Shown one piece after another: positions 3,337 to 48,860 of a DNA stretch of 49,025 bases. Numbering within the stretch: position 1 is the stretch's first letter; each line of letters starts with the position of its first letter. The DNA is from Pedobacter sp. BS3 (GTDB lineage Bacteria > Bacteroidota > Bacteroidia > Sphingobacteriales > Sphingobacteriaceae): NCBI RefSeq assembly GCF_008274585.1, contig NZ_VTRT01000012.1, positions 1 through 49,025 of the forward strand, written 5' to 3'. The notes beneath the pieces were generated by a model. It was given only the letters and a program-made list of their open reading frames with translations, was not told the DNA's origin and made no database searches. Both the position numbers and the translations under genes were made by a program.

Positions 3337-4512
3337 TTACAGCATCTCAAATACTCCTGCTGCGCCCTGCCCGTTGCCTACGCACATGGTTACCATGCCA
3401 TATTTTTGGTTACGGTGTTTCAGTTCGTGGAGCAACTGAACGGTTAGCTTTGAACCGGTACAACCTAACGGATGTCCTAAGGCGATGGCTCCCCCATTCA
3501 CATTTACAATTTCAGGATTTAGCCCCAATGTGCGAATAACTGCCAGGGATTGGGAAGCAAAAGCCTCGTTAAGCTCGATAAGCTGGATATCGTCCAGTTT
3601 CATCCCGGCTTGTTTTAGCACTTTCGGGATAGCTTCAACAGGGCCGATACCCATAATTCGCGGCGGCACACCGGCGACCGAATAACTCACCAAACGTGCT
3701 ATTGGTTTAACATTTAATTGTTTCAGCATCTTTTCTGACACCACCAGCACAAACGCGGCGCCATCAGACGTTTGCGATGAATTGCCTGCCGTAATGCAAC
3801 CTCCGGCAGCAAAAACAGGTTTCAGCTTCGCCAGCTTTTCCAGCGAGGTATCGGCCCTGGGCCCTTCGTCAATATCCACTACATATTCACGGGTTTGCTT
3901 TTGCAGCTTATCGTCCAGGTAGGTTTCGTGAACCGTTACAGGAGCAATGCCAACCTGCAAACGACCGTTCTTAATGGCTTCTACAGCCTTCTGGTGAGAA
4001 TGTAAAGCAAATTTGTCCTGGTCTTCCCGGCTGACATTAAACTCTTTAGCTACCGCCTCGGCAGTTAATCCCATCCCCCAGTACCAGTCGGGATGTGTTT
4101 TAGCTACTTCGGGATTCGGCACCAGTTTCCATCCACCGAAAGGCATTCCCGACATCACCTCGACACCTCCGGCAATAATGCAATCGGCCATTCCAGATCG
4201 TATCTTAGCCGTTGCAATGGCAATGGTTTCCAATCCCGACGAACAATAACGGTTTACCGTCATCCCCGGAACTTTGTCGGTATCTAAGGACATCAGCGAA
4301 ATCATGCGGCCAATGTTCAGTCCCTGCTCCGCTTCCGGCGTTGCATTTCCGACAATCACGTCGTCGACCTGGCTTTTATCCAGATCAGGCACCGAAGCCA
4401 TTAATTGCCTGATGACCGTTGTCGCCAAATCGTCGGCCCGTGTAAACCTGAAAACGCCCCGAGGCGCCTTTCCTACAGCGCTTCGAAGTCCTGCTATGAT
4501 GTATGCTTCCAT
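3337..4512 (-). CDS. fadA: Acetyl-CoA C-acyltransferase (3-ketoacyl-CoA thiolase)
   Basis: This 391-residue thiolase catalyses the last step of the beta-oxidation cycle, cleaving 3-ketoacyl-CoA with CoA. The nucleophilic cysteine is in NRYCSSG (C90), the active-site histidine is in [15 protein letters not shown], and the second cysteine is in TMCVGNGQG near the C-terminus. ATG at 4512 gives the usual [15 protein letters not shown] start. The in-frame extension to 4563 only translates the heptamer array and is rejected. It is paired with the FadN-type gene at 5010-7409 in the order of Bacillus fadN-fadA, but the two are separated by a four-helix-bundle gene. Confidence 0.93.
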
Positions 4513-4517
4513 TTTAG

Positions 4518-4559
4518 TATTGGGTAGTGAGTATTGGGTAGTGAGTATTGGGTAGTGAG
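4518..4559 (+). repeat. Heptamer array, six units (arm 2 of the cassette)
   Basis: There are six exact 7-bp units, TATTGGG alternating with TAGTGAG three times. The array begins 5 bp upstream of the fadA ATG and ends 19 bp from the four-helix-bundle stop. It is the inverted partner of the array at 4975-5002. Confidence 0.95.
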
Positions 4560-4578
4560 ACATATCTTATATATTCTC

Positions 4579-4941
4579 TTAATGATTACTATTCATTAAG
4601 CTTTTTTGAAGTTTATAATTCATCTTTTGGAGTTCATCGATAATTTTTAAAATTTCACTGCTTAAGTTACTGTCAATAAAACCTAATTTTTCTGCAATGA
4701 CTATTTGGGTCTGCAATTCATAGGAAGAGCCGTTGGCAATACCCAGAAACTGTATAAATTCTCCTTTTGTATTTCTTCCAGCTCCTTCCGAAATATTTGA
4801 AGAAATTGAAACGGCACATCTCCTGACTTGAGAAGTCAAGCCAAATCGCTCATCAGAGGGAAACTGTGCAGATATTTCATATATCCTGATTGCCAAATCA
4901 ATAGCTTTGCTCCAAACCTTTAATTCTTTAATATTATGCAT
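4579..4941 (-). CDS. Four-helix-bundle protein (23S rRNA intervening-sequence protein family)
   Basis: This 120-residue protein shows the family signature: LKVWSKAIDLAIRIYE at residues 8-22, FPSDERFGLTSQVRR at 27-41, SISSNISEGAGR at 46-57, then FLGIANGSSYELQTQ. The family (TIGR02436) was first seen inside intervening sequences of bacterial 23S rRNA genes. Its fold is related to Avd, a partner of diversity-generating reverse transcriptases, and its biochemical role is unsettled. The gene is visibly more A/T-rich than the fad genes around it and is bracketed by inverted heptamer arrays, suggesting insertion into a formerly adjacent fadN-fadA pair. Confidence 0.88.
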   Translation of the reverse strand: MHNIKELKVWSKAIDLAIRIYEISAQFPSDERFGLTSQVRRCAVSISSNISEGAGRNTKGEFIQFLGIANGSSYELQTQIVIAEKLGFIDSNLSSEILKIIDELQKMNYKLQKSLMNSNH

Positions 4942-4974
4942 AGTTAAATGGTCTTATTCGGGTTCTGCGCCCAT

Positions 4975-5002
4975 CTCAATACCCAATACTCACTACCCAA
5001 TA
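4975..5002 (-). repeat. Heptamer array, four units (arm 1 of the cassette)
   Basis: Read on the minus strand it is TATTGGG, TAGTGAG, TATTGGG, TATTGAG with exact 7-bp spacing. It lies 7 bp after the FadN stop codon and 33 bp before the four-helix-bundle ATG. It is the same sequence as 4518-4559 in inverted orientation. Confidence 0.95.
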
Positions 5003-5009
5003 CCAACAT

Positions 5010-7409
5010 TCAATTCCTCAACGGTTTCCCACCCGTAATAATAGCTTTCAGGCGTTCCAGGGTTTTCTTTTCCCCACAAAGCGATAAAAAGGCTTCGCGT
5101 TCAAGGTCGAGCAGGTATTGCTCGGTTACCAGTGTGGGTTGCGACAAATCGCCGCCGCACATTACCCAGCCCAGCTTTTCGGATATTTTTTTATCGTGTT
5201 CTGATATGTAATGACCGGCATACATGGAGTTTGCCCCGGAATATACGATACCAAGTCCCTGTTTGCCCAACACGCGAATATCGCTTCGCGGGACAGGCTG
5301 CGTATAACCGGCTTCGGCCAGTTCAATGGCTTTCGCTTTGGCATCGGCAATTAAACGACTGCGGTTCATGGTGAGACCATATTTACCCTTTTGCAGGTAA
5401 CCAAGCTCCAATGCTTCGGGCCCTGAAGTGGAGACTTTTGCCATGGCAATGGTTAAAAACCTATCCTTAAATATATTCTGGTCAATCTGGTCTTCTTTAT
5501 ATTCATCGGATGCTCGCAAGGCAAACTCTTTTGAACCTCCCCCACCCGGAATAACGCCTACGCCAAATTCCACCAAACCCATGTAGGTTTCGGCGTTCAG
5601 CTGAACGTAATCGGCATGCAGGCAAAACTCGCAACCACCTCCCAAGGTAAGATTATGTGGCGCAAGCACTACCGGGATAGCCGAATAACGAATACGCATG
5701 GACGTATCCTGGAAAAGTTTTATCGCCCGGTTCAGCGCTTCGAAATCCTGTTCAACAGCCATCATAAACACCATACCGACATTGGCTCCGGCAGAAAAGT
5801 TAGCGCCGTCGTTACCAATTACCAGTCCACGATAATCCTTTTCAGCTAAATCGATAGCTTTATGGATGCCTTCGAGCACTTCTGCGCCAATGGTATTCAT
5901 TTTGGTATGAAACTCGGCATTGAGAATACCATCGCCCAGGTCAATAATGCTTAAGCCATCATTCTGCCACACAGTTTTAGTGGCACGGATATTATCCAGG
6001 ATAATAAAGGCATCCGTTCCGGGAATGGACTTGTAGGTTTTAGATGGAATATCGTAATATTTCCGGATGCCATTTTCCAGCTTATAAAAACCGGTATTGC
6101 CGGCAGCCAGCATTTCCTGTACCCAGGCGGCAGGCTCATGCTGGTATTGCTTCATATACTCCACTGTTTCGCTGACACCCAGGGCATCCCACACTTCAAA
6201 CGGACCAAGCTCCCAGCCAAATCCGGCACGCATGGCGTCATCTATACGGTACAGCTCGTCCGAAATTTCGGGGATACGGTCTGATACATATTCAAACAAC
6301 CCATAAAACGATTGCCGGAATAACTCGCCGGCCTTATCTGTACCTTTGGCATATATCTTTATCCGTTCCCGGAGATTTTCAACCGGTTTTATGGCATCCA
6401 GCGTTGCCGATTTTACTTTTTGCTGCGGCTTGTATTCCAGCGTTTTCAGGTCAAGCGCCAAAATCTCGCTGCTGCCGTCCGCCTTTTTAATCTTTTTGTA
6501 AAAACCCTGCCCGGTTTTATCGCCCAGCCATTTATTCTCTGCCATTTTCTGCACAAAACCGGGCAATCGGAACAATTCTCGGGCTTTATCTTCCGGACAA
6601 TTTTCATATAAGCCATCTGCCACATGAATCATGGTATCCAACCCTACCACATCGCTGGTACGGAATGTAGCCGACTTCGGCCGACCTAACGCAGTACCGG
6701 TAAATTTATCGACTTCTTCTACTGTTAAGTCCAGCTTTTCTACCAGGTGCAGCAAGGCCATAATGGAATATACACCTACGCGATTAGCGATAAAGGCAGG
6801 TGTATCTTTGCATAACACCGTGGTTTTGCCCAGGTATTTATCACCATAACGCATCAGGAAACCGGTTACCTCCGGCTTTGTTTGCGGCGTGGGTATGATT
6901 TCCAGCAAGCGCAGGTAACGCGGCGGATTAAAGAAATGTGTTCCGCAGAAATGCGCCTTAAAATCATCACTCCTGCCCTCATTTAACAAATGAATGGGTA
7001 TGCCTGATGTGTTGGAGGTAATAAGCGTTCCCGGCCTGCGGTATTTTTCAACCTGCTCATAGATATTCTTTTTGATGTCCAGGTTTTCTACAACCACCTC
7101 AATTACCCAGTCGCACGTGGCTATCTGCGGCATATCATCGGTAAAATTACCGGTGCGGATACGTTGTAAAACCTGTTTGGTAAACACTGGCGAGGGGCTG
7201 GATTTGGCGGCTGTATCTAACGACGTATTCACAATACGGTTACGTACTGCTTTATCATTCATCGTCAATCCTTTGCCCTGCTCTTCGGCTGTAAGCTCTT
7301 TAGGAAGCATATCCAGCAAAAGAACTTCGACACCGATATTGGCAAAATGGCAGGCAATACGCGAGCCCATAATGCCCGAACCCAGAACCGCTACTTTTTT
7401 TATATGCAT
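5010..7409 (-). CDS. fadN: 3-hydroxyacyl-CoA dehydrogenase / enoyl-CoA hydratase fusion (FadN type)
   Basis: This 799-residue bifunctional enzyme catalyses the hydration and NAD-dependent oxidation steps of beta-oxidation. The N-terminal Rossmann domain starts with VLGSGIMGS (GxGxxG, residues 9-17). The dehydrogenase catalytic region includes HFCGTHFFNPPRYL and KDTPAFIANRVG. The C-terminal half carries a crotonase domain with LTLGGGCEFCLHADY and VGVIPGGGGSKE. Dehydrogenase-first order and the ~790-residue length match FadN rather than E. coli FadB. Transcription probably continues into the four-helix-bundle gene and fadA. No acyl-CoA dehydrogenase gene follows within the window. Confidence 0.92.
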   Translation of the reverse strand: MHIKKVAVLGSGIMGSRIACHFANIGVEVLLLDMLPKELTAEEQGKGLTMNDKAVRNRIVNTSLDTAAKSSPSPVFTKQVLQRIRTGNFTDDMPQIATCDWVIEVVVENLDIKKNIYEQVEKYRRPGTLITSNTSGIPIHLLNEGRSDDFKAHFCGTHFFNPPRYLRLLEIIPTPQTKPEVTGFLMRYGDKYLGKTTVLCKDTPAFIANRVGVYSIMALLHLVEKLDLTVEEVDKFTGTALGRPKSATFRTSDVVGLDTMIHVADGLYENCPEDKARELFRLPGFVQKMAENKWLGDKTGQGFYKKIKKADGSSEILALDLKTLEYKPQQKVKSATLDAIKPVENLRERIKIYAKGTDKAGELFRQSFYGLFEYVSDRIPEISDELYRIDDAMRAGFGWELGPFEVWDALGVSETVEYMKQYQHEPAAWVQEMLAAGNTGFYKLENGIRKYYDIPSKTYKSIPGTDAFIILDNIRATKTVWQNDGLSIIDLGDGILNAEFHTKMNTIGAEVLEGIHKAIDLAEKDYRGLVIGNDGANFSAGANVGMVFMMAVEQDFEALNRAIKLFQDTSMRIRYSAIPVVLAPHNLTLGGGCEFCLHADYVQLNAETYMGLVEFGVGVIPGGGGSKEFALRASDEYKEDQIDQNIFKDRFLTIAMAKVSTSGPEALELGYLQKGKYGLTMNRSRLIADAKAKAIELAEAGYTQPVPRSDIRVLGKQGLGIVYSGANSMYAGHYISEHDKKISEKLGWVMCGGDLSQPTLVTEQYLLDLEREAFLSLCGEKKTLERLKAIITGGKPLRN

Positions 7410-20085: not shown

Positions 20086-20164
20086 AAGGTTAAAGGCTGA
20101 AGGCTGGAAGGTGGAAGGCATAGGGCGCTTAAACCCTCTACCTTCTACCTTTATACCTTCTACC
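20086..20164. repeat. Two-arm heptamer array in the rpoB-rpoC gap
   Basis: On the plus strand AAGG/AGGG starts fall at about 20086, 20093, 20100, 20108, 20115 and 20122, and the facing arm has CC at 20134, 20141, 20148, 20156 and 20163. Both arms share the 7,7,8,7 spacing, so the units can pair in register as a long imperfect hairpin in the mRNA. It occupies nearly all of the 90-bp gap. Confidence 0.9.
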
Positions 20165-20168
20165 TCAA

Positions 20169-30891: not shown

Positions 30892-30912
30892 TTTTAAAAT
30901 TTTTACGGGCTG

Positions 30913-30944
30913 CAAATGTAATATTAATTTATGAAACTTACAAA
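30913..30944 (-). promoter_or_regulatory. rpsU promoter
   Basis: TTTG (30944-30941), a 20-bp gap and TACATTTG (30920-30913) give a perfect match to the Bacteroidota primary promoter consensus. The -7 box is about 42 bp upstream of the rpsU ATG. Confidence 0.8.
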
Positions 30945-30950
30945 CGTGTT

Positions 30951-30979
30951 GATAGTGATTAGTTGTTAGTTGTTAGTTG
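30951..30979. repeat. Heptamer array with three TTAGTTG units
   Basis: Exact TTAGTTG copies lie at 30959-30965, 30966-30972 and 30973-30979, preceded by GATAGTG. It lies directly upstream of the rpsU promoter. The 520-bp gap 30872-31392 otherwise holds the rpsU control sites and two hairpins (31181, 31226); no convincing gene was found. Confidence 0.85.
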
Positions 30980-31180
30980 CCGGGGCAGAGTTAAGGCGTC
31001 AGCTTACAAAGCTGTATTATTTCCGCTATTTATTATGCCATACATGTTTTTGAAAAGCACTTGCAGTAGTTCATCGGCAAAGATAGTCCTGCCATCCGCT
31101 GTAGCCCTCATTACATTCGGGGCTGTCGCTCCTGTCAGGTTTAGCCTGGTTAGGACAATGCTCCTATTACCTTTCTGAGA

Positions 31181-35609: not shown

Positions 35610-36700
35610 TACTGAATTACTACAATATGGTATGTCATGGAAGCAGGATCCTTAACGGTGCTGCTGGCATTGAAGAATTTCACTTCAACAGTACCTGCTG
35701 CCGATACCCGGCAATAGGAAATGATCACCCCGTCGGGCAAAGCAACATCCGGCGATACCGTAACCACCGGTTTAAGACCGATTGATGCACCGGAAACCGC
35801 AAAAGTCTGTATAGAGGCTTCCCCTGCCGGGATAGCCGGAACATCCTTAACCACCGAAGCCTTGAGCACATTGGTTATTACTGAGCCGCCCTGTCCCAGG
35901 ATGACATCGCCATTCACATGCAGCTTAGCGCCCGGATTGGATGTGGCTATACCTACATTCCCGGTAGATTTTACCCGCATGCGCTCGGTGCCCTTGGTTC
36001 CCACTACAAAATCCTTCTCATCCCGCGTGCCAATATAAGTTCCGCCTGTACCGCTGGCAGCCGGAGTGGTAGCGCTGTTACCCGTTAACAACCAACTGTC
36101 TGAACTGCCGCCTGATTTCAGGTTGGCAACCAGTTGCCAGCCGCCGGTAGTTTTAGTATATACATCAGCGGTCAGGTTATCCAGGTAATAATCGCCGGTT
36201 ATGCCTAACGTTTCTACAGGCGAGTTACTATCGGTATACCATTTGGCGCCATTTTCTCCGGGGTCTCCCTTCTCGCCTTTTTCTCCCTTGTCGCCCTTAT
36301 CACCCTTTGCTCCGGCGGGGCCGGCCGGGCCAGCTGGGCCCGGAGGTCCGACCAGGCTTGATGCATCGGTCGACAGATCCGTCCATTTATTATCCAGCCA
36401 GTAGTTGAATTTATTTTTATCTGTATTATAGATGAGTAAGCCGTTTATGCCGGTATTAGTAACACCATCGGCCTGAAGGCTGTTACGCTGAAGCTCTGTT
36501 AACCGCGGAATCAACAGGCCCTTGGCCGTAGAATATATATCGAGTATTGCTTTGCTGTTAGGTGTTTCTGTACCAATGCCTACAGCGCCTGTCTGAGCAT
36601 GCACACGCATACCCGTAAGTATAAAAACCAGCAGCATGCATTGAAATATAACCGGCTTTACAGGCGCAGCACCTCCTATTTTGCCAATATTTTTTCTCAT
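35609..36700 (-). CDS. Exported collagen-like surface protein
   Basis: This 363-residue protein has a signal peptide ending near VHAQ (residue 36). An N-terminal region (GIGTETPNSKAILDIYSTAKGLLIPRLT) is typical of Bacteroidota tail-fibre-like surface proteins. Twelve Gly-X-Y triplets follow at residues 118-153 (GPP/GPA changing to GDK/GEK), then a second fibre-like motif (GNVGIATSNPGAKLHVNGD) and a beta-rich C-terminus. Gly-X-Y tracts imply a trimeric collagen-like rod. No type IX sorting domain is seen on this protein. It is the first gene of the operon, translationally coupled to the CHU_C gene. Confidence 0.82.
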   Translation of the reverse strand: MRKNIGKIGGAAPVKPVIFQCMLLVFILTGMRVHAQTGAVGIGTETPNSKAILDIYSTAKGLLIPRLTELQRNSLQADGVTNTGINGLLIYNTDKNKFNYWLDNKWTDLSTDASSLVGPPGPAGPAGPAGAKGDKGDKGEKGEKGDPGENGAKWYTDSNSPVETLGITGDYYLDNLTADVYTKTTGGWQLVANLKSGGSSDSWLLTGNSATTPAASGTGGTYIGTRDEKDFVVGTKGTERMRVKSTGNVGIATSNPGAKLHVNGDVILGQGGSVITNVLKASVVKDVPAIPAGEASIQTFAVSGASIGLKPVVTVSPDVALPDGVIISYCRVSAAGTVEVKFFNASSTVKDPASMTYHIVVIQ

Positions 36701-44430: not shown

Positions 44431-44766
44431 TTATTTTTTTAATGAGAATATATTTTCCATCAGCACCCATTTTTCACCGGGTTTTGCCCCGGGCATTTCC
44501 TGCTGGTATTTCCACATCAGCTCTTCCCATTCCTGTACTTTGGGATTGGAAGCATCCATTTCGGCTTTACGCTCAAAACTGAAGGTATCGTCTGCCTCAA
44601 TAATCATGAACAGGCGGTTGGCATACCGGTATATTTCCATGCTCAGAATTCCGGCGTTATGAATGCTGTCCCTGATCTCCGGCCATATATTTTCATGCCA
44701 GCGGATATATTCTTCAATGAGCGCCGGGTCATCCTTTAAATCAAGCGCAAGACAATGTCTTTTCAT
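44431..44766 (-). CDS. L-rhamnose mutarotase (RhaM)-family protein
   Basis: This 111-residue protein has the RhaM pattern: CLALDLKDDPALIEEYIRWHENIWPEIRDSIHNAGI with the catalytic histidine, YRYANRLFMIIEADD and the C-terminal EWEELMWKYQQEMPGAKPGEKWVLMENIF. The family interconverts anomers of L-rhamnose, and relatives serve L-fucose. ATG at 44766 is chosen because the five extra residues from the upstream TTG only translate the heptamer repeat. It is a one-domain dimeric enzyme of expected size. Confidence 0.9.
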   Translation of the reverse strand: MKRHCLALDLKDDPALIEEYIRWHENIWPEIRDSIHNAGILSMEIYRYANRLFMIIEADDTFSFERKAEMDASNPKVQEWEELMWKYQQEMPGAKPGEKWVLMENIFSLKK

Positions 44767-44770
44767 AAAG

Positions 44771-44890
44771 TCAAAATTCAAAAGTTAAAATTCAAAAGCC
44801 ATAAACACACAAGCCTGAAAAATTCAAAAGTTAAAAGTCAAAATTCAAAAGGCCTGAACGCACAAGCCATAATAAGTTAAAAGTTAAAAC
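44771..44890. repeat. Heptamer array with 53-bp higher-order period
   Basis: Four exact TCAAAAT/TCAAAAG/TTAAAAT-type units at 44771-44798 repeat at 44824-44851 and, truncated, at 44877-44890. They are separated by two related 25-bp spacers, both containing CACAAGCC. The super-unit offset is exactly 53 bp. The array fills the gap between the mutarotase and GH105 genes. Confidence 0.9.
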
Positions 44891-44897
44891 TGGTTAA

Positions 44898-46046
44898 TTA
44901 TTGTAACAGGGCTGCTGCTGTCCAAAGTACCGGCGCTTGTCCGTGCAAATCGCCGGTAAGGCGCTTGCGGTCAAGATAATATTGCCGGTCATTTTTCTTG
45001 TTCGTCCCTTCACAAACATCGCTAATATCGGCATTTGCATCAATATGCTTAACCAATGCCAGCCATGCCTTACGGGCGGCAGGCGCATACGTTTTTTTAT
45101 CCAGCCAGCCCTGTTTAACCCCGGTTACCATCGCAAAAGCGAACATACCGGTTCCTGAGCTTTCTTCCCACGATTCCGGGTCGTCTATAAGCTGCCGCCA
45201 CATGCCCGATTCGGACTGATATTTCAGTAACGAAGCCATCATTGTTTTATAGCCTGTTAAAATACGGGGCCTGTCCGGGTTATTTGCCGGTAACGAGCTT
45301 AAAATCTCGGCCATACCGGCGGCCATCCACCCGTTTCCGCGTCCCCAGAAAAAAGGCACATCCGGTGCATGGTAAAAAAGACCATTGGGCCGCTGAAGCG
45401 AATCGAGGTAAACCACCATTTCTTTTGCTGCCCGGTTAATGTATTTGCTGTCGCCCGTGGCCCGGTAAGCCTGCGCCTGTAAGGCATTGATCATAAACAT
45501 ATCGTCAATCCACAGGCGGGTTTGCCAGGTTAATCCCCGGTTATAAAAAATATACGATTGCGGAACAACCCGCTTCCCTTCCGGCGGGCCCCATTGCTTG
45601 TCGGCAATGTGCTGACCTAAGTCCAGATAGCGTTTATCCTTGGTTTGCCTGTACAATTCTAACGGGACAGTGCCAAAAACACAGTAATCTACATGATCGG
45701 GTACCGGAATCATGTGGGCTTCGCTGGTGAAAAGCGGCTCAAAACGTTTAGCTAAAGCATCAGTTAATGAGTCGTTTTTGGTGGCACTTGCAAATTTCAA
45801 CGCTCCATACCAGGCACAGCTTTCCGGATAGGTAATCACTCTTGGCGGAGTGGGTTTCCCGAAATTGGTATGCGGCGTTGCCAGAAAATGTACAGCGATG
45901 CGTTTTCCTACTTCAAGGGGCGAATATCCCGCAGGCCAGTGTTTTAAATCGCCGGAAGGCTGAGCATAAACACTATTGGTTACCAACCAGGTAACTAATA
46001 GTGCTATTATACTATAATATCCTGATAATCCTTTCTTTATGTTCAT
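44898..46046 (-). CDS. Glycoside hydrolase family 88/105, unsaturated uronyl hydrolase
   Basis: This 382-residue exported enzyme has a signal peptide ending near VYAQ (residue 29). The alpha/alpha-barrel family signatures are visible: TWQTRLWIDDMFMINALQAQAY with the catalytic aspartate, HAPDVPFFWGRGNGWMAAGMAEIL and SGTGMFAFAMVTGVKQGWL. Family members (YteR-like) hydrate and cleave unsaturated galacturonyl-rhamnose, and relatives act on ulvan or arabinogalactan fragments. Co-location with a fucosidase and RhaM suggests a substrate rich in deoxy sugars and uronic acid. Confidence 0.88.
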   Translation of the reverse strand: MNIKKGLSGYYSIIALLVTWLVTNSVYAQPSGDLKHWPAGYSPLEVGKRIAVHFLATPHTNFGKPTPPRVITYPESCAWYGALKFASATKNDSLTDALAKRFEPLFTSEAHMIPVPDHVDYCVFGTVPLELYRQTKDKRYLDLGQHIADKQWGPPEGKRVVPQSYIFYNRGLTWQTRLWIDDMFMINALQAQAYRATGDSKYINRAAKEMVVYLDSLQRPNGLFYHAPDVPFFWGRGNGWMAAGMAEILSSLPANNPDRPRILTGYKTMMASLLKYQSESGMWRQLIDDPESWEESSGTGMFAFAMVTGVKQGWLDKKTYAPAARKAWLALVKHIDANADISDVCEGTNKKNDRQYYLDRKRLTGDLHGQAPVLWTAAALLQ

Positions 46047-48550: not shown

Positions 48551-48600
48551 ATCCGGTTAGCCTTATAGTAAGCTGAACTAACATGGCGTTAAGTAAAAAT

Positions 48601-48754
48601 GGACAGTGGACAGTGGATAGTGGATAATGGACAATGGACAATGGACAGTGAATAGTGAATAGTGAATAGTGGATAGTGGATAATGGATAATGAACAATGG
48701 ACAATGGACAATGGATAGTGGATAATGGACAGTGGGCAATGGACAATGGAGAAT
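48601..48754. repeat. Uniform array of 22 heptamers
   Basis: Twenty-two consecutive 7-bp units without a phase break, all variants of G-G/A-A-C/T-A-A/G-T such as GGACAAT and GGATAGT. A further TCAAAAG-TTAAAAG pair lies at about 48814-48827. The region 48474-49025 shows no gene. Confidence 0.95.
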
Positions 48755-48860
48755 GAGAATAGAGAATAGAGAAAATCCTGATACTTGTCCCGGGTAATTC
48801 GAGGTTCAGAATCAAAAGTTAAAAGGCTATAAGTACCAACCATTCTTGTAGCCTATCAAT

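Follow-up and report, generated by a model that had tools for sequence, protein, structure and literature searches.

The closest described relatives of the locus analyzed here are the intervening sequences (IVSs) found in the 23S rRNA genes of Coxiella, Leptospira, and other bacteria. In excerpts of PMC4990558, the Coxiella IVS lies in helix 45 and carries 28-bp terminal inverted repeats, which form a stem, around the S23p open reading frame (ORF), with tandem GACAGAT heptamers upstream of that ORF; the insert is cut from the rRNA transcript, and the fragmented rRNA is still functional. The same excerpts cite an old proposal (Ralph and McClelland 1993) that IVSs are mobile and that their ORF serves mobility. 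Heptamer repeats are also described in the excerpted text of two other papers, of the GGGAATC type in Xanthomonas and Nostoc (PMC4692102) and of the TAACTGA type in Beggiatoaceae (PMC4679880). According to these excerpts, the repeats are mostly intergenic and have a period of 7, as do the arms of the cassette described below, and two Xanthomonas genomes contain 70 and 75 convergent inverted heptamer pairs and Nostoc only a few (PMC4692102). The excerpts make no tie to the S23 gene family, and one of the two papers describes heptamer repeats as generally without mobile-element association. Three further papers (PMC5524665, PMC10053308, and PMC10910872) mention the S23/IVP gene family in the excerpted text, without arms, and no tie of S23/IVP genes outside rRNA to heptamer arms was found in the excerpts of open-licence papers. 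We file an IVS-type element outside rRNA as what is new here, with the Coxiella IVS, the Xanthomonas and Nostoc repeats, and the TAACTGA repeats as partial precedents.

Other systems share single features with this locus. RAYT/REPIN systems consist of a gene between inverted repeats together with dispersed gene-less copies, a layout that recurs here, but our cassette is without a Y1 nuclease and its ends vary by locus. Avd of diversity-generating retroelements (DGRs) has the same four-helix-bundle fold as the protein encoded here, but no reverse transcriptase was found in the genome and the two proteins are only about 10% identical. The fixed, shared terminal inverted repeats of DNA transposons and MITEs are not seen, as the words in the arms vary apart from an AG core.

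An S23-family gene lies between inverted heptamer arms in the fadN-fadA operon

The window, by which we mean the whole stretch of 49,025 nucleotides that was analyzed, comes from Pedobacter sp. BS3. The original prediction placed a four-helix-bundle gene between two inverted heptamer arms inside the fadN-fadA pair, and the sequence and Tandem Repeats Finder (TRF) bear out the order fadN, four-unit arm, gene, inverted six-unit arm, fadA:

3337..4512, minus strand: fadA-like thiolase gene, downstream operon neighbor, start codon ATG at 4512
4516..4559, minus strand: 3' arm, six inverted heptamers of the same family as the 5' arm, 3 bases ahead of the fadA start (sequence, TRF)
4579..4941, minus strand: four-helix-bundle gene of the S23 / 23S rRNA intervening-sequence protein family, Avd-like fold, 120 amino acids (PF05635, TIGR02436)
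4975..5004, minus strand: 5' arm in gene orientation, four heptamers GTATTGG/GTAGTGA/GTATTGG/GTATTGA, near the fadN stop codon (sequence, TRF)
5010..7409, minus strand: fadN-like gene (3-hydroxyacyl-CoA dehydrogenase / enoyl-CoA hydratase), upstream operon neighbor, stop codon TGA

The array at 4516-4559 has a 14-bp double unit, AGTATTGGGTAGTG, with 100% matches (TRF). The longest fadA ORF would start at 4563, within the cassette; orthologues favor the start at 4512. The four-helix-bundle gene lies on the same strand as fadN and fadA and is the only content of the cassette, which does not encode a Y1 transposase. As predicted, it is A/T-richer than its surroundings, with a GC content of 33.1% compared with 50.5% for fadA, 47.3% for fadN, and 44.1% for the whole window. 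In the RNA, the arms pair into an uninterrupted closing stem of 26 bp, and the z-score of the whole cassette is -6.1. Rfam at gathering scores found only tRNAs in the window, so this copy does not lie in 23S rRNA.

The gene product matches PF05635 (E 3.7e-38, 130.4 bits, cutoff 33.8) and TIGR02436 (E 8e-36, 122.6 bits, cutoff 24) well above the cutoffs, confirming its assignment to the S23 family. Since a single-sequence structure model was poor (pLDDT 55.5), we used an AlphaFold2 model based on a 44-row alignment (pLDDT 96.5) in its place. In Foldseek searches, this model matched 2gsc (TM 0.92, E 6e-8) and 2rld (TM 0.79, E 1e-4), each an entry with five chains; 2gsc is described as a homopentamer in excerpts of PMC4990558. 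As for structural kinship to Avd, the model superposes on Avd of the Bordetella phage retroelement (4dwl) with a TM of 0.78 and on Avd-sized chains of the DGR ribonucleoprotein (8ub7) with a TM of up to 0.83, but the Foldseek E values (0.084 and 0.075, respectively) are not significant, and the match to the Avd HMM is weak and below its cutoff (E 1.1e-4, 22.5 bits against 80). Neither profile searches nor Foldseek found a nuclease domain in the gene.

Inverted arms accompany the gene family across phyla

PF05635 is present in at least 116 of 148 Bacteroidota genomes; loci were taken from the best-scoring matches, which favors strong members of the family. In the Pedobacter genome itself, the 14 matches fall at 12 loci, and frameshifts split two of these. 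When flanks were compared among 41 loci, the own 3' flank was the best inverted match to the 5' flank at 10 of these 12 loci and ranked second and third at the remaining 2. Across 117 Bacteroidota genes, the inverted score averaged 17.4 for matched and 11.5 for mismatched flanks, and matched flanks exceeded the 95th percentile of mismatched pairs in 65 genes and the 99th in 41, compared with none of 314 gene-free control spans (drawn from the loci in the set at that stage) above the 99th. This gene set derives from 150 HMM hits after removal of repeats in overlapping loci and of genes less than 360 bp from a locus end; duplicates were removed ahead of the edge test, so that at least two genes of the Pedobacter genome (L003 and L005) were lost, and one frameshifted gene (L010) counts as two pieces.

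Inverted arms were present at 48 of 74 usable named loci (75 of 80 entered), a set that covers Bacteroidota as well as Proteobacteria, Clostridia, Acidobacteria, Planctomycetes, candidate phyla, and more. They were also present in 24 of 32 usable viral contigs (33 of 41 loci entered, near-copies and fragments being left out) and, by eye, at all seven plasmid loci, five from cyanobacteria, one from Gemmatimonadota, and one from Azospirillum. Over the 230 loci compared (Bacteroidota, other phyla, plasmids, and viral contigs), scores above 15 were reached by 137 inverted matches, 27 direct, 7 mirror, and 30 complement matches, leaving 93 loci without an inverted match above 15. The direct, mirror, and complement controls, together with the gene-free spans, rule out chance or composition as the origin of the arms. 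The original prediction had named a lack of such arms around homologous genes as evidence against itself; at 137 of 230 loci in this flank check, the arms were there.

Periodicity in the flanks, measured over lags 4 to 15, peaked at lag 7 and its double, 14; a smaller group of loci peaked at 8. Heptamer words differ between loci but share an AG core; 96 of 148 5' arms repeat this AG in register at a period of 7 or 8, compared with 8 of 148 shuffled ones. At the 148 armed loci, the median arm is 36.5 bp long with 85% identity between the pair; the 5' arm lies a median of 27 bp ahead of the start codon and the 3' arm 8 bp past the stop codon. Where the array directly follows the upstream stop codon (25 loci), the periodicity begins at that stop. 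This upstream stop is TAG in 31 of 89 cases, compared with 142 of 732 across segments of eleven genomes (P = 0.0014) but 81 of 280 in the loci themselves; we dropped the TAG excess as a signal because it depends on the background chosen.

Two loci of the Pedobacter genome, L001 and L009, have words in both orientations within a flank, forming a hairpin beside the gene; this applies to both flanks of L001 and to the 3' flank of L009. Two plasmid cassettes sit inside CRISPR operons, one between cas6 and cas4 in Pseudanabaena (L147) and the other between cas10 and cmr3 in Picosynechococcus (L149). The association of the four-helix-bundle family with CRISPR may thus reflect mere insertion.

One cassette occupies a 23S rRNA hairpin loop

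Locus L151 of Azospirillum lipoferum aligns along its full length to bacterial large-subunit (LSU) rRNA (2043.9 bits). Its gene, with arms of GACGGAT and GACAGAG, is inserted in the sense orientation in a hairpin loop between LSU model positions 1218 and 1219, which we take to be helix 45 of 23S rRNA. The window cassette has what defines an IVS in structure, namely, an S23p/PF05635 ORF in the sense direction inside stem-forming terminal inverted repeats. The insertion in a 23S helix is found in L151; the window copy lies instead between fadN and fadA. Another trait of rRNA IVSs is excision by RNase III without religation. The window arms differ further from those of 23S rRNA IVSs in being heptameric on both sides and locus-specific and in belonging to a family that recurs as gene-less arrays. 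At least two IVSs, those of L151 and Coxiella, thus have an architecture in common with the operon cassettes, and the copy in the 23S rRNA loop leads us to read the cassette as an IVS-type element living in operons.

Related genes often share arms at unrelated sites

The relation between genes and arms was examined in 9173 pairs of armed loci with unrelated outer flanks. Both arms were alike in 0 to 0.4% of pairs with a gene similarity below 0.5, in 2.4% at 0.5 to 0.6, in 8.8% at 0.6 to 0.7, and in 46.7% (7 of 15 pairs) at 0.7 or above. These 15 pairs, which share members, comprise 11 from viral contigs (4 sharing both arms) and 4 nonviral ones (3 sharing both arms). When loci were permuted within each collection, the observed fraction at a similarity of 0.6 or above (0.137) was reached in 0 of 2000 permutations (mean, 0.025; maximum, 0.077), and the observed mean arm score was reached in 5 of 2000. 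In the Bacteroidota set alone, the same trend is seen on few pairs, with arms shared in 3 of 14 at 0.6 to 0.7 and in 2 of 3 at 0.7 or above. Arms are thus often common to related genes whose surroundings are unrelated, and we therefore disfavor an origin of the arms from the target site.

There are exceptions. The genes at L098:7013 and L140 are 75% identical and have unrelated arms, and the two genes at L031 are related (0.65) and have different arms. Genes clustered within one operon (L098, L097, L088, L111, and L128) have no close kin among themselves and do not share both arms, leaving local hopping as a general rule unsupported. In one such cluster (L098; G092:C14:219500-228000), 8.5 kb holds four four-helix-bundle genes that are only distantly related.

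The fadN-fadA junction is polymorphic

Among 30 loci of relatives with a fadA orthologue, classed by eye, the fadN-fadA gap was empty in 10, contained the gene in 7, and contained arrays only in another 7; of the remaining six, four have longer gaps with other or unviewed content (the two longest, L041 and L045, were left out of viewing) and two have no fadN within reach. The gene is therefore not fixed at this junction, which the original prediction had listed as a finding that would count against it. The 10 empty gaps measure 7 to 75 bp without an array, including one of 8 bp in a genome of the same genus, in agreement with the expectation that fadN and fadA are otherwise close. At the seven gene-bearing junctions, arms are clear by eye in six and weaker in L047. 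TAA serves as the fadN stop codon in 9 of 10 empty cases, compared with 2 of 14 cases bearing a gene or array.

On a tree of 191 rows, from which viral loci, rows with internal stops, and rows shorter than 85 amino acids were left out, the seven junction genes need seven changes; resolution is poor, with 90 of 188 branches open, and well-supported branches force only two. Two junction genes, those of L031 and L038, lie near each other. The nearest kin of the window gene, in a clade with an SH-aLRT support of 99, sit not at this junction but after fadA, in the genomes G013 and G012, where GTATTGN words are found too. A gene after fadA combined with gene-less arrays at fadN-fadA occurs in four genomes: in three (G012, G018, and G038), one heptamer family is seen by eye at both places, and in G013 the gene-less array uses another word than the gene after fadA. 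These arrays of the same family as the next junction lend support to the predicted arms-only form.

A junction in another genus bears the gene in three genomes and a 42- to 63-bp spacer in three others, a pattern in which insertion and loss look alike. Comparison of occupied with empty sites, between which the spacers have diverged, fixed no target-site duplication or exact ends, and the best empty-site spacer differs.

Gene-less heptamer arrays recur in the Pedobacter genome

Four further arrays lie in the window on neither strand in particular:

20093..20165, no strand: gene-less two-arm array, AAGGCTG-type / CTACCTT-type, candidate arms-only form (TRF; hairpin score 13.8)
30948..30979, no strand: short solo array, GTTGTTA (TRF)
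44762..44889, no strand: one-armed solo array, AAAGTCA/AAATTCA type (TRF)
48598..48773, no strand: solo array AATGGAC/AGTGGAC, 22 units in one direction, without a second arm (TRF)

The prediction that such arrays are two abutting arms with the gene removed fits one of the four viewed (20093-20165) but not the others, whose regions (30900-31020, 44750-44900, and 48585-48790) have hairpin scores of 6.0 to 6.8. Words similar to those of the 48598-48773 array adjoin the gene at L009 in the same genome.

In 449 kb of this genome, strict arrays numbered 14 at lag 7 and 8 at lag 14, with none at lags 5, 6, and 8 to 13. The 14 lag-7 arrays occupy 12 places, with 9 intergenic by a crude test, and both four-helix-bundle genes in these 449 kb (window 4579 and C21:197502) lie away from all of them. 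Tandem copies of the window word are found at 12 other places in the genome (28 matches in total, of which 8 lie in the window arms), compared with 6 matches for the reversed pattern; a permuted word, with 16 matches, turned out to represent a genuine heptamer family here and was unusable as a control. Viewed by eye, whole intergenic stretches at the window-word places are mosaics of several heptamer families, whose words partly resemble the arms of other cassettes in the genome. In the mosaics at L353 to L380, several families follow one another, G-rich words first and then C-rich ones.

The arms of the genome's own cassettes matched other places in the 449 kb with a mean of 2.9 matches (6 of 9 arms with at least one), compared with 0.26 for the arms of other Bacteroidota (10 of 58 matching; P = 8e-5) and 0.35 for those of the other collections (12% of 81). 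The genome thus contains gene-less arrays of the same families as its cassettes. Outside this genome, the link is weak. Four genomes that lack the gene had no lag-7 arrays in 320 kb, nor did a single-copy genome in 80 kb, and five gene-rich genomes yielded 2 strict (6 loose) in 400 kb, with none in three of the five; at 80 kb per genome, these arrays are too few to relate array density to gene number.

A probable mobile cassette that is also maintained in place

We conclude that the window locus is probably one copy of a widespread minimal cassette, made up of an S23/Avd-like gene and inverted AG-core heptamer arms. The candidate mobile cassette of the original prediction gains support from the polymorphic junction, from the arms shared by related genes at unrelated sites, and from the arrays in the genome itself. 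Against this reading stand the 93 of 230 loci without an inverted match above 15 and the 8 of 15 most similar pairs that do not share both arms.

Such a cassette might work as follows. Sense bias and tight packing suggest that the gene is promoterless and expressed by read-through of the host operon. The product, pentameric by homology, may recognize the AG-core heptamers of its own arms as RNA, DNA, or both; the AG core, the retroelement-subunit fold, and the joint inheritance of gene and arms all suggest a ring-forming protein that reads its own arms. In the transcript, the paired arms would fold the cassette off and so render insertion nearly harmless, and, by analogy with rRNA, excision-like handling would make insertion into an operon tolerable. 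At a low rate, machinery encoded outside the cassette, such as host repair or a transposase acting in trans, would copy either the cassette or a single arm into a further gene junction and so leave arms-only forms.

A different explanation, which we consider unlikely, is a stable operon-embedded regulator that is not mobile: a vertically inherited gene whose protein acts on the hairpin of its own mRNA and whose arms have grown by slippage. Several results speak for it. Judged by a crude ORF test, both neighbors run in the same direction as the gene in 79 of 117 cases and both run opposite to it in 7 (P = 1.5e-16), and the RNA stem of the window is stable. Among 21 orthologous pairs at fixed loci, several of them from one genus, the 18 with a defined ratio have a median dN/dS of 0.06, indicating strong purifying selection in place. 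In 18 pairs of orthologous loci, some with weak arms, 112 of 1252 aligned arm sites differ (8.9%, gaps at 89 positions not being counted), at pS values of 0.06 to 0.71; the 3' arm of G103 shows one-sided growth. Opposed to this are the matching arms of related genes at unrelated sites, the polymorphic fadN-fadA site with seven occupants requiring seven changes on the weakly resolved tree, and, in three genomes, the hairpins made of arms alone that lie near the gene and belong to its heptamer family. The arm mismatches carry no wobble signature either: they comprise 185 G-U and 222 A-C pairs (P = 0.07). Lacking this G-U excess, the arms look more like two site arrays than like a stem kept base by base, and, despite the strong stem of the window cassette, we rejected selection on base pairing in an RNA stem.

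The same data bear on how a mobile cassette would behave. Many copies are old, vertically inherited, and under selection in place, and transposition must therefore be rare. Given the low dN/dS and the few arm differences, protein and arms appear to be kept in place as well as movable; this conservation is more than a purely selfish passenger would need. The strong purifying selection indicates that the gene probably also acts where it sits, and, since protein and arms are both conserved there, the protein probably has an additional job on its own transcript.

A passenger role for the gene is less likely still; in this reading, the arms would be terminal sequences that a Y1 transposase of the REP-associated type, or host repair, mobilizes in trans. 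The Pedobacter genome has three PF01797 (Y1 transposase) matches, all on contigs other than that of the window, gene-less arrays are common in it, and the gene has no detected nuclease domain. A single transposase could, however, hardly recognize locus-specific words beyond the AG core, and a passenger fits poorly with a gene that is under purifying selection and keeps together with its arms. Retro-mobility, in which the Avd-like protein would work with a reverse transcriptase as in DGRs, seems highly improbable: the fold match to Avd and DGR Avd chains (TM 0.72 to 0.83, Foldseek E 0.075 or worse), the weak Avd HMM match (22.5 bits against a cutoff of 80), and a sense orientation suited to an RNA intermediate are set against a genome without a PF00078 (reverse transcriptase) match, a domain matched in 3 of 14 control genomes.

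The mobile cassette reading can be extended, tentatively and with somewhat more doubt than confidence, to a pan-bacterial class of minimal mobile elements, in which a ring-forming Avd-like protein would recognize self-specific end arrays with lineage-specific words, spread would take place between operon junctions and rRNA helices, and gene-less remnants would make up bacterial heptameric repeats. Three loose ends would meet here: the S23/IVP proteins, the IVSs that fragment 23S rRNA, and the heptamer repeats of several phyla, which have no agreed explanation. If one element links all three, the proposal of IVS mobility becomes testable with many well-marked copies, and one protein family with a different word at each locus would offer a new protein-repeat specificity to study.

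Two other repeats were seen in the window. Positions 1359-1551 hold a tandem duplication of 96 bp (97% identity) with a GAACGAAGCTCCAGCTTCGTTC hairpin and with GAGCGAAG in one copy. Positions 36247-36340 show 9-, 18-, and 27-bp periodicity within a coding stretch that may encode a collagen-like repeat protein.
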